A stretch of DNA of 64,000 nucleotides, taken from Deltaproteobacteria bacterium. Its GTDB lineage: Bacteria; Desulfobacterota; Desulfarculia; Desulfarculales; Desulfarculaceae. Of this stretch, positions 44,345 through 47,136 are shown piece by piece. The translations under genes were made by a program, and so were the position numbers. How positions within the stretch are numbered: the stretch's first letter is position 1; every line of letters starts with the position of its first letter. Below the pieces are notes generated by a model. That model had not been told where the DNA came from and searched no databases. It worked only from the letters and a program-made list of their open reading frames with translations. The stretch lies in the NCBI GenBank assembly GCA_021811275.1, contig JAJZPI010000001.1:1-64000 (forward strand), read 5' to 3'.

Positions 44345-46090
44345 TTAGGCGGACCCCGGTGGTCCGCCGGTCCAGTCGTCCCGCAGGGCCTCCAAAGTGC
44401 CAATGGGTAGACCCAGCTCCTTGGCCTTGAGAACCCGGCGCAGTAGCCGCCTACCGGCGTTGCGAGGTAGCTCGTCGGTGAACTCCAGCTCGTTCAAAGG
44501 TAGGTAGGGGGAAATCTCCGCCCGGGCCAGGGCCTTGAGCACCTCCTTGAGCTCCCAGCCCGGCTTGTTGCCCGGATGCAGCCGCACGAAGCCCTTGAAC
44601 CAGGGGCTCTTGTCCGTGGCGGGCTGGATAACGGCGCACTCGGCTACCGCCGGATGCCTGGCAAGGGCGCGCTCCACCTCGTAGGGGCCCACCAGGCGGC
44701 CGAATACCCTGAGCACGTCGTCCTTGCGCCCGCTCAGGTAGTAATAGCCGTCCTCGTCCACGGTAGCCAGGTCGCCGCTCAGATACCAGCCATGGCTGAC
44801 CAGGCTATCCTCGCGGCCGGCCTCCCCCCACAGCCCTGAGAACATGGAGGGCCAGCCGGGTTTGAAGGCCAGCTCCCCCAGAGTCAGGAGAGGCTGGCTC
44901 CGGCCCAGGCTGTCGATAACCTCGGCCTGCACCCCGGGCACGGGCCTTCCCGCCGAGCCCAGCTTGATGTCCTGGCCGGGGAAATTGGCCAGTGCGATCA
45001 TGCCAATTTCGGCGCTCCACCAAGTGTCGTGGATATGCCGGCCCAGGTTGTTGCGGAACCAGAAGAAATCTTTGGGCGGCAGGGGCCGGCCCACGGTGGC
45101 CACGTGCCCCAGGCCGTCGAGCCGGTAGCGCTTGGGCAGGTCCTCGCCGGCTTGCTTCAGCAGTTCGATGATGCCCGGCCTGGTGTACCAGGTGGTGGGC
45201 TGGTGGAGTTCCAGGGCCCGATACCAGTTGGAAGGGCTGAACTCGCCGCCCACCATGAGGACCGCCGAGCCGCAAAGCCAGGGGGCCAGGCCGCCGTAAA
45301 CCGTTGCCGAGAACCAGCCGGGCAGGCCGTCGGTCCAGCAGAGACTCCCTGGCCCCAGGTCCAGCACGTAACGGCCGGTCATAAGGAGGCCGGCCATGCC
45401 GCCGTGGGTGTGTACCACTCCCTGTGGCGGGCCGTCGCCGCCGGAGGTGAAAATGATGTAAAGGGGGTGCTCTGGCCCAACCCAGCGCGGCGGGCGCTCC
45501 TTGGGCTGGCCGGGCAGCAGCCGGCTGACCAGCTCTTCCCGGACATGGCGGCCGGTGGGCTTGCCCGTGGTCAGCAGCAGGGTGGTGCCGTCCGCCAGGG
45601 TCTCCCGTGGCAGTTTGCGCGCCAGGGTGGGGGTGCTGACCATGACCTTGGGGGCCATGCGGGCCACCAGCCAGTGCAGCTCATAGGGCGTGAGGTCCGG
45701 GGGCAGGGGACAGAACACGGCCCCTAGGCGGGCGGCGGCCAGGACCGCCAGATGAGTTTCCGGCCGGGCCGGCAGAAAGACGGCCAGGCGGTCGCCGGGC
45801 ATTAGACCCAAATCGGCCAGCATGTTGGCCCATTGGCAGGAGAGTTCCCTGAGCTCGCCGAAGGTGTAGGCGTTCACCTCCGCGCCGTGGTCGAAGATCA
45901 GGGCCAGTTTCCCCGCGGTCTCCGGAGAGTCGGCCCAGCGGTCGATGGCCTCGTAGGCTAGATTGTAGCGGTCGGAGCCGCGCCAGGTGAACTCGTCCAG
46001 GATGGTGTCCCACTTGAAGTTGAGATAGGCCTCCTCATACGAGCCCAGGCGGCTACGGGAGTCTTCGGCCCTGATGCGGGTGCGTATCAC
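44345..46090 (-). CDS. Acetyl-CoA-synthetase-like AMP-forming ligase with altered catalytic motifs
   Basis: A 581-residue ANL-superfamily protein resembling AcsA (DTWWSAEIGM, LGSAGRPVPGV, WYLSGDLA and GRKDDVLRVFGRLVGPYEVE). Two hallmark sites are changed. The P-loop TSGTTGxPKG reads FTSGGDGPPQG, and the C-terminal catalytic Lys of SGKxxRR is Arg (NAGRRLLRR). The usual adenylation lysine is therefore absent, so the protein may be inactive or catalyse a different half-reaction. The GTG overlaps the stop of the AcuC-like gene, indicating tight coupling. The 818-residue ORF in the track includes a false N-terminal extension. Confidence 0.78.
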   Translation of the reverse strand: MIRTRIRAEDSRSRLGSYEEAYLNFKWDTILDEFTWRGSDRYNLAYEAIDRWADSPETAGKLALIFDHGAEVNAYTFGELRELSCQWANMLADLGLMPGDRLAVFLPARPETHLAVLAAARLGAVFCPLPPDLTPYELHWLVARMAPKVMVSTPTLARKLPRETLADGTTLLLTTGKPTGRHVREELVSRLLPGQPKERPPRWVGPEHPLYIIFTSGGDGPPQGVVHTHGGMAGLLMTGRYVLDLGPGSLCWTDGLPGWFSATVYGGLAPWLCGSAVLMVGGEFSPSNWYRALELHQPTTWYTRPGIIELLKQAGEDLPKRYRLDGLGHVATVGRPLPPKDFFWFRNNLGRHIHDTWWSAEIGMIALANFPGQDIKLGSAGRPVPGVQAEVIDSLGRSQPLLTLGELAFKPGWPSMFSGLWGEAGREDSLVSHGWYLSGDLATVDEDGYYYLSGRKDDVLRVFGRLVGPYEVERALARHPAVAECAVIQPATDKSPWFKGFVRLHPGNKPGWELKEVLKALARAEISPYLPLNELEFTDELPRNAGRRLLRRVLKAKELGLPIGTLEALRDDWTGGPPGSA

Positions 46091-47136
46091 ATCATGCCTC
46101 CCATCCAAACGCCGTAGATGCCGTGCACCTGACGGGCCTTTCTGACCAGCGCGATGCCCCGCTCGCTTCTGGCTCGGGCTAATATCTCCTCGCCCTGGCC
46201 CAAACCCAGGAGTCCCAGCAGGGTTTGGCGCACCGAGGCGGCCAGGGCCTCGGGATTGTAGCCGCCCTCCAGAGCTAGCATGAGGGGCACGCCGCGCTCG
46301 GGGCCCAGACGGCGCACCAAGGCCCCCAGGCCGGCGAAGGCCTCCTCGCTGAGCTGGGTGCTGCCCAGGGGGTCTTCCTTGTGGGCGTCGAAGCCGGCCG
46401 CCACCAGGATCAACTCGGGCTCGTAGCCTTCCACCACCTGTGGCAGCACTTCTCGGTAGAGGCTGAGCACGTCGGCGTCGGAGGCGTCGTAGGGCAGGCA
46501 GACGTTCATGGTGTAGCCCGCGCCCCGGCCCATTCCCACATCCTCCCAGTCGCCGGTGTGAGGGTATGCCTGAAAATAGTGGGTGGAAAAATAGAACACC
46601 CCTGGGTCGCGGTAAAAGATGTCCTGGATGCCGTTGCCGTGGTGGACGTCCCAGTCCACGATCAGCACCCGCTTGAGTCCGAGAGCCGCCCGCGCCCAGG
46701 CCGCGGTCACGGCCAAGTTGTTGAAGATGCAGAACCCCCCCGCCTGGCCTCCCAGGGCGTGGTGGCCCGGCGGCCGCACCAGGGCGAAACAGATAGGGCA
46801 CTGGCCGGAGAGCACCGCTTCCAGCCCGCGCAGGCAGCCACCGGCGGCCAGCCAGGCGGCGTGGCAGCTATTGGCGCTGGCCGTGGTGTCGGAGGCCAGG
46901 TTGGTGAAGGCCCGCCGGGCGGTGGCCAGCACCAGTTGTACATGGGCCGGTGAATGGGCCAGCTCGATCTGCTCCAGGGTGGCCGGGGAGGGGTCGAAGA
47001 AAAAAAGCTGGCTCGAGAATTCCCTGTCCAGCATGCCGTATACCGCCGCCAGCCGCTCCGGGCTCTCCGGGTGGCTCAGGCCGGTCTTGTGGGTGAGGTA
47101 GGCGGGGTCTTTGACTATGCCCAGCTTCGGGCCCAT
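46087..47136 (-). CDS. acuC: AcuC-like class II histone deacetylase family protein
   Basis: A 349-residue Zn-dependent deacetylase with the family motifs VRPPGHHAL, FNNLAV, VDWDVHHGNG, FDAHKEDP and LEGGYN. All catalytic and Zn-ligating His/Asp positions appear intact. In Bacillus, AcuC deacetylates acetyl-CoA synthetase. Here it is translationally coupled to an AcsA-like protein, which suggests a functional link. The start is an ATG. Confidence 0.88.
   Translation of the reverse strand: MGPKLGIVKDPAYLTHKTGLSHPESPERLAAVYGMLDREFSSQLFFFDPSPATLEQIELAHSPAHVQLVLATARRAFTNLASDTTASANSCHAAWLAAGGCLRGLEAVLSGQCPICFALVRPPGHHALGGQAGGFCIFNNLAVTAAWARAALGLKRVLIVDWDVHHGNGIQDIFYRDPGVFYFSTHYFQAYPHTGDWEDVGMGRGAGYTMNVCLPYDASDADVLSLYREVLPQVVEGYEPELILVAAGFDAHKEDPLGSTQLSEEAFAGLGALVRRLGPERGVPLMLALEGGYNPEALAASVRQTLLGLLGLGQGEEILARARSERGIALVRKARQVHGIYGVWMGGMM

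Follow-up and report, generated by a model that had tools for sequence, protein, structure and literature searches.

A putative pseudoenzyme of Desulfarculaceae: a deacetylase-linked paralogue of acetyl-CoA synthetase whose adenylation motifs have decayed

We found that AcsA2, a paralogue of AcsA-type acetyl-CoA synthetases encoded with a Zn-dependent lysine deacetylase in a draft Desulfarculaceae genome (245 contigs), has the sequence hallmarks of a pseudoenzyme: catalytic residues are lost, the gene is maintained under purifying selection and the fold is predicted to be conserved. The reading we favour, with a probability of about 0.55, is that AcsA2 derives from AcsA and has been retained as a non-catalytic, co-translated partner of the deacetylase in a module for the reversible acetylation of Acs. 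Reversible lysine acetylation in bacteria has its textbook example in the A10 lysine of Acs, and AcsA2, if this reading is true, would add a new type of component, a pseudo-substrate or adaptor, to that switch. The gene pair lies in the window, the whole 64,000-nucleotide stretch of DNA analysed here, with the following features.

44345-46090, minus strand: AcsA2, 581 residues, a paralogue of AcsA-type (PRK04319-like) acetyl-CoA synthetases whose adenylation motifs are degraded (Pfam, NCBIfam, PDB match, AF2 model)
46087-47136, minus strand: Zn-dependent class II-type (HDAC6/HdaH-like) lysine deacetylase, 349 residues (Pfam, PDB matches, motif table)
46087-46090, minus strand: GTGA, the 4-nt overlap of the deacetylase stop and the AcsA2 start
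45419-45448, minus strand: A3/P-loop of AcsA2, TSGGDGPPQG (residues 215-224), Thr to Asp219 and Lys to Gln223
45080-45094, minus strand: 'GEP' motif, VGRPL (residues 333-337) for VGEPL, Glu to Arg
45002-45022, minus strand: A5 motif, WWSAEIG, Glu retained, Thr to Ala
44717-44782, minus strand: A7 region, GD ... GRKDD, nucleotide-binding Asp and Arg retained
44435-44467, minus strand: A10 motif, PRNAGRRLLRR (residues 542-552) for PKTRSGKIMRR, with the codon of Arg548 at 44447-44449

The start codon of AcsA2 is GTG, with GGGAGG ahead of it, and the 4-nt overlap suggests translational coupling of the two genes. The mechanical ORF list gives an 818-aa ORF beginning at 46801, which extends the frame of AcsA2 upstream into the deacetylase gene. 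The protein has the AMP-binding and AMP-binding_C domains (Pfam) in the order and fold of AcsA, and its best PDB sequence match is B. subtilis AcsA (9g79; PMC11910552). The AF2 model, which used 31 homologues (pLDDT 87, as against 34 without an alignment), predicts an intact fold, the N-terminal domain matching 9g79 with a TM score of 0.96 and an rmsd of 1.5 Å; the P-loop, with residues 217-220 at pLDDT <50, is its least certain internal part. The best-matching family model, NF003313 (PRK04319 acetate--CoA ligase), scores 483.5 bits, below its equivalog cut-off of 729 bits. Model-based annotation of AcsA2 genes points to acetate--CoA ligase, and would lead metabolic models of sulfate reducers and related bacteria astray.

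A sequence-only reading of this DNA had reported TSGGDGPPQG in place of the P-loop, and NAGRRLLRR with an Arg at the lysine that is acetylated in Acs. Both are indeed present. The P-loop of B. subtilis AcsA is YTSGSTGTPKG and that of AcsA2 is FTSGGDGPPQG, which departs from the consensus TSG[ST]TGxPKG; Arg548 aligns with Lys549 of B. subtilis AcsA, so that the catalytic, acetylatable lysine of A10 is missing. The change of Glu to Arg in the 'GEP' motif comes in addition to these. The A5 Glu, the A7 Asp and Arg and the A8 Gly are all retained in the window protein. In this family the A10 Lys is required for adenylation, and its loss barely affects the thioester step (PMC11255334). Since ATP-dependent adenylation requires both the P-loop and the A10 lysine, AcsA2 would no longer make acetyl-CoA; with the P-loop also gone, ATP-dependent ligase activity is very unlikely.

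The same changes are found in relatives. Two congeneric species have AcsA2 at 73% identity with identical changes (the deacetylase is 72% identical in one of the two), and ten further Desulfarculaceae genomes have the pair at 41-48% identity. Arg occupies the position of B. subtilis K549, and also that of K544, in 12 out of 12 Desulfarculaceae copies. The P-loop is degraded in 11 of the 12, ranging from TSGGDGPPRG to FVNPPDGPAQG and HAENPEGPPRL, with the exception of G011 (TSGNTGPPKG). In genus g4 the decay goes further, with the A8 Gly changed to Asp in 8/8 copies, the A5 Glu to Tyr, Phe or Asp in 6/8 and the A7 Asp to Asn in 2/8. The motifs are intact in the nearest relative outside the decayed clade, G012 (TSGSTGPPKG and PKTSTGK), and in G020, which belongs to a different family of the same order (TSGSTGPPKG and PKTRSGK). 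A sequencing or assembly error could be imagined in a draft genome of 245 contigs; it is, however, ruled out for practical purposes by the two congeners, which show the same changes at 73% identity, and by the loss of the lysine in nine more genomes.

Despite the losses, AcsA2 is maintained. Its ORF is full-length in 12/12 Desulfarculaceae across deep divergence, and the deacetylase gene lies directly upstream on the same strand in 12/12 (frame-broken in one, a metagenome-assembled genome, G013), with flanking genes that vary among genera. Pairwise dN/dS of the decayed copies was 0.12-0.40, versus 0.05-0.10 in pairs retaining both lysines; AcsA2 is thus under purifying selection, with some real relaxation. 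The pseudoenzyme option of the sequence-only reading is therefore well supported: the loss is graded, affecting the P-loop, the A10 Lys and further residues of A5 (Glu), A7 (Asp) and A8 (Gly) in sister genera, and the rest of the protein is under purifying selection. Within the pseudo-clade, conservation is highest in the A10 segment (72% mean identity, versus 54% for the N-terminal domain), where it comes close to the 75% seen in copies with an intact lysine. This would fit a surface still read by a partner, either Acs or the deacetylase, which has to bind the corresponding loop of Acs. We also considered that the deacetylase might act on AcsA2 at another conserved lysine. The only invariant Lys of the AcsA2 clade is K501 (P0001 numbering), which is invariant in canonical AcsA too, leaving no sign of a site specific to the clade, and we rejected this possibility.

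We analysed the decay of the active site across 44 deacetylase-linked and 12 unlinked AcsA proteins (the latter including that of B. subtilis), scoring six core residues (K222, E360, D440, R455, G464 and K549 in B. subtilis numbering). The A10 Lys was absent from 27 of 42 linked copies with data and from 0 of 12 unlinked ones, and all six residues were present in 0 of 43 evaluable linked copies (G042, whose contig stops before A10, was left out) and in 12 of 12 unlinked ones, but the linked proteins come close to forming a single clade (support 75/90) and the sampling followed similarity to the window protein, so that linked and unlinked copies are not independent trials and Fisher-type p-values overstate independence. 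The fair measure is the number of changes on the tree, which was built carefully without the motif columns: about 5 for the A10 Lys, about 6 for the P-loop Lys and 4 for the A8 Gly (a quick tree gave equal counts for the two lysines). The A10 Lys became Arg in Desulfarculaceae; Thr, Gly, Ala, Met or Gln in family f13, where the P-loop Lys is intact; Arg in the G342/G119 pair, where the P-loop is destroyed; and Ile in G397. It was also lost in part of family f36, where the P-loop Lys is Ile, Val or Leu as well. That these residues were lost several times in relatives, while the gene pair stayed together, suggests that AcsA2 regulates rather than catalyses.

Fifteen linked copies retain the A10 Lys, and every one of them lacks either the P-loop Lys or the A8 Gly; their inactivity is less certain. 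The A8 Gly, Gly524 of Salmonella Acs, is important for the CoA step. In the linked AcsA2 proteins L121, L120 and L178-L187 this Gly is Asp, Glu, Gln or His and both lysines are still there, so in this branch the divergence of the CoA-step motif seems to have preceded the loss of the A10 Lys. Of 20 deacetylases first listed without a paired AcsA2, none on inspection lies directly beside an AcsA, and no intact linked AcsA was met. The distances of the deacetylases and of AcsA2 correlate across loci (r = 0.87), a correlation that species history alone could produce.

The deacetylase has a Hist_deacetyl domain (Pfam, 1.5e-85) and all motifs intact (RPPGHH, DWDVHHG, GFD and EGGY), that is, the RPP, HH, D-x-D-x-H, D and GGY elements of a classical, class II-like Zn-dependent deacetylase (for RPP and XGGY, see PMC11532494). 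Its best sequence matches among solved structures are HDAC6, HDAC15, HDAC10 and HdaH, by which we assign it to class II rather than to class I AcuC; B. subtilis AcuC is grouped with the class I enzymes (PMC11532494). An NCBIfam search gave it no name. The sequence-only reading was thus right that the ligase gene overlaps that of an apparently active deacetylase, by 4 nt, but the enzyme is HDAC6/HDAC10/HdaH-like by its matches to solved structures and not a class I AcuC. Similarly, the idea that the K-to-R and P-loop changes mark a clade always next to AcuC holds for the Arg and for the deacetylase neighbour (12/12 each, one deacetylase frame-broken) and for 11 of 12 P-loops, with a class II-type enzyme in place of AcuC proper. 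A second deacetylase paralogue, unlinked to AcsA2, occurs in the window genome (G000, C111:18193-19218, 42% identity), and likewise in most relatives.

The window alone made the pairing look paradoxical, as a partner that cannot be acetylated at the usual site sits next to a deacetylase. Related genomes remove the difficulty. Across the phylum a canonical Acs gene (TIGR02188 type) often precedes that of the deacetylase, and a GNAT acetyltransferase joins them in several families. The fullest operon, Acs-GNAT-HDAC-AcsA2, is found in G012, G324, G397 and G398, and also in G020, where it is split over contigs; G245 and G286 have the order GNAT-Acs-HDAC-AcsA2. Wherever both motifs are readable, the Acs of these operons has YTSGSTG-PKG and LPKTRSGKI(M/L)RR. 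Acs-family matches are present in 20 of 21 genomes of the order, and in the window genome the intact Acs lies on contig C72, apart from the pair; a GNAT of the operon family was not found in the window genus. Because related genomes pair the deacetylase gene with an intact Acs (PKTRSGKIMRR), and often with a GNAT writer, the natural target of the deacetylase is most likely Acs and not the adjacent AcsA2, and a non-acetylatable neighbour is then no paradox. In relatives, the short gene (214 aa) that separates Acs from the deacetylase resembled AcuB by its length but proved to be the GNAT (Pfam). Upstream of Acs in several families (L182, L183, L184, L185 and L187) lies the gene of a ~630-aa protein in which a GNAT domain is fused to the C-terminus of an acetyl-CoA hydrolase/transferase, which fits with acetate metabolism.

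We propose that the AcsA fold of AcsA2, chiefly the conserved A10 loop with its fixed Arg, may dock on the deacetylase. Alternatively, the partner of AcsA2 might be Acs, bound through the dimer surface of AcsA-type proteins; AcsA itself dimerises (PMC11910552). Either way, AcsA2 could direct or hold back the deacetylation of the true Acs, perhaps on binding AMP, acyl-AMP or CoA. It would then be the counterpart of AcuB, which in Bacillus inhibits AcuC, holding the deacetylase in response to AMP or Ap4A (PMC13121692, PMC13039410). The K549R variant of AcsA, which is not acetylated, still forms the complex with AcuA (PMC11255334). A wider and more tentative proposal, which we hold with clearly less than even confidence, is that a phylum-wide family of AcsA pseudoenzymes serves as the regulatory subunit of a switch made up of Acs, a GNAT as its writer, a class II-type HDAC as its eraser and pseudo-AcsA. 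The family would have been inactivated repeatedly, by different routes, because its use is to imitate the substrate of the switch without being acetylated or catalysing a reaction.

Some observations do not sit easily with the deacetylase-partner reading. The window protein could still bind nucleotide or carry out thioester chemistry, given the residues of A5, A7 and A8 that it retains. The variable A10 residue of family f13 is hard to reconcile with one way of docking shared by every lineage, decayed copies have a raised dN/dS, and the window genus has its Acs on a separate contig and no GNAT found. It is conceivable, though on balance unlikely, that AcsA2 has given up adenylation with ATP and still binds preformed acyl-AMP, or AMP and acetyl-CoA, as an acyl-AMP:CoA transferase, an enzyme of the reverse half-reaction or a ligand sensor. 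The retained residues would suit such a role, as would the thioester step kept by A10 Lys mutants in the family (PMC11255334) and family f13, in which the A10 Lys is the only residue lost. However, the g4 orthologues have also lost the A8 Gly, mostly the A5 Glu and sometimes the A7 Asp, the A8 Gly is already gone from copies with an A10 Lys in the f1/f2/f51/f58/f64 group, and free acyl-AMP has no obvious source.

Slow decay of a redundant duplicate, carried along with the deacetylase by co-transcription, is in our view rather improbable. It would account for the dN/dS above that of intact-lysine pairs, for losses that vary by lineage and for the intact Acs that almost every genome of the order has, but not for full-length ORFs in 12/12 Desulfarculaceae despite large divergence, clear purifying selection, linkage that survives rearrangement, the invariant Arg at both the K544 and K549 positions, or an A10 segment that is the most conserved. 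A CoA ligase with a new mechanism, suggested by the sequence-only reading, is unlikely because of the residues lost by AcsA2 orthologues, and we see only a slim chance that AcsA2 is an active acyl-CoA ligase in which Arg548 or another residue replaces the lysine. The basic residue is invariant in Desulfarculaceae, and the window genus retains the nucleotide-binding Asp and Arg of A7; on the other hand, the P-loop Thr and Lys are gone together with the A10 Lys, sister genera lack further active-site residues, and no conserved Lys compensates, K501 (P0001) being invariant in canonical AcsA too.

Among the closest known systems is B. subtilis AcsA with acuABC (AcuA acetyltransferase, AcuB sensor, AcuC deacetylase). 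It shares the AcsA fold and family, the grouping of acetyl-CoA synthetase, GNAT and Zn-deacetylase genes, and a protein co-encoded beside the deacetylase. In contrast to it, the grouped enzyme-like protein here has no catalytic lysines, a deacetylase of the HDAC6/HdaH kind takes the place of class I AcuC, the pair has no AcuB-like gene, and the intact Acs is of the long TIGR02188 type. AcuB, a CBS-ACT adaptor of AcuC, resembles AcsA2 in proposed role, as a non-catalytic and possibly nucleotide-responsive partner of a deacetylase, but has an unrelated fold, and its regulation was measured, whereas that by AcsA2 is inferred. The canonical unlinked AcsA proteins (PRK04319) of the phylum (L104/L170, L105/L171, L162-L165 and L168-L169) share family, domain order and 35-38% identity with the window protein; unlike it, they have all six core residues (12/12, including B. 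subtilis). The A10 lysine is also replaced in the laboratory variants S. enterica Acs K609A (PDB 2p2j) and B. subtilis AcsA K549R (PMC11255334), whereas AcsA2 carries it naturally and as a fixed change, along with loss of the P-loop. A look-alike of Acs that evolved repeatedly and cannot be acetylated at this site would offer a natural experiment for telling the catalytic role of the A10 loop apart from its recognition. A literature search, mostly without subscription papers and so weak evidence, found no report of an ANL, acyl-CoA synthetase or Acs-family pseudoenzyme, nor of the four-gene Acs-GNAT-HDAC-AcsA2 module, including in sulfate reducers. What is new is the repeatedly decayed partner; the family, the fold, the class of the deacetylase and Acs acetylation as a principle were known before.

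Several loci depart from the common arrangement. A second copy in G324 (L181:6623-7663), within an otherwise complete Acs-GNAT-HDAC-AcsA2 operon, has EGGF for EGGY in the deacetylase (the transition-state Tyr changed to Phe), possibly making it a pseudo-deacetylase. In G013 (L011:1191-2116) the deacetylase is in two overlapping frames with ~97 residues absent, through either an assembly fault or a real loss, and the AcsA2 beside it is intact, with 96% identity to its nearest relative. Family f13, where AcsA2 lacks the A10 Lys, has an ORF of ~100 aa between the deacetylase and AcsA2 (L189:6707-7036, a DUF3303 protein, the one scanned), and ORFs of similar size lie at the same place in L152-L156. 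Finally, the Desulfarculaceae genome G019 has the deacetylase (L118:3984-5458, 53% identity) without AcsA2, adjoining a 145-aa protein that, judged from its sequence, is like a low-molecular-weight phosphatase/arsenate reductase.
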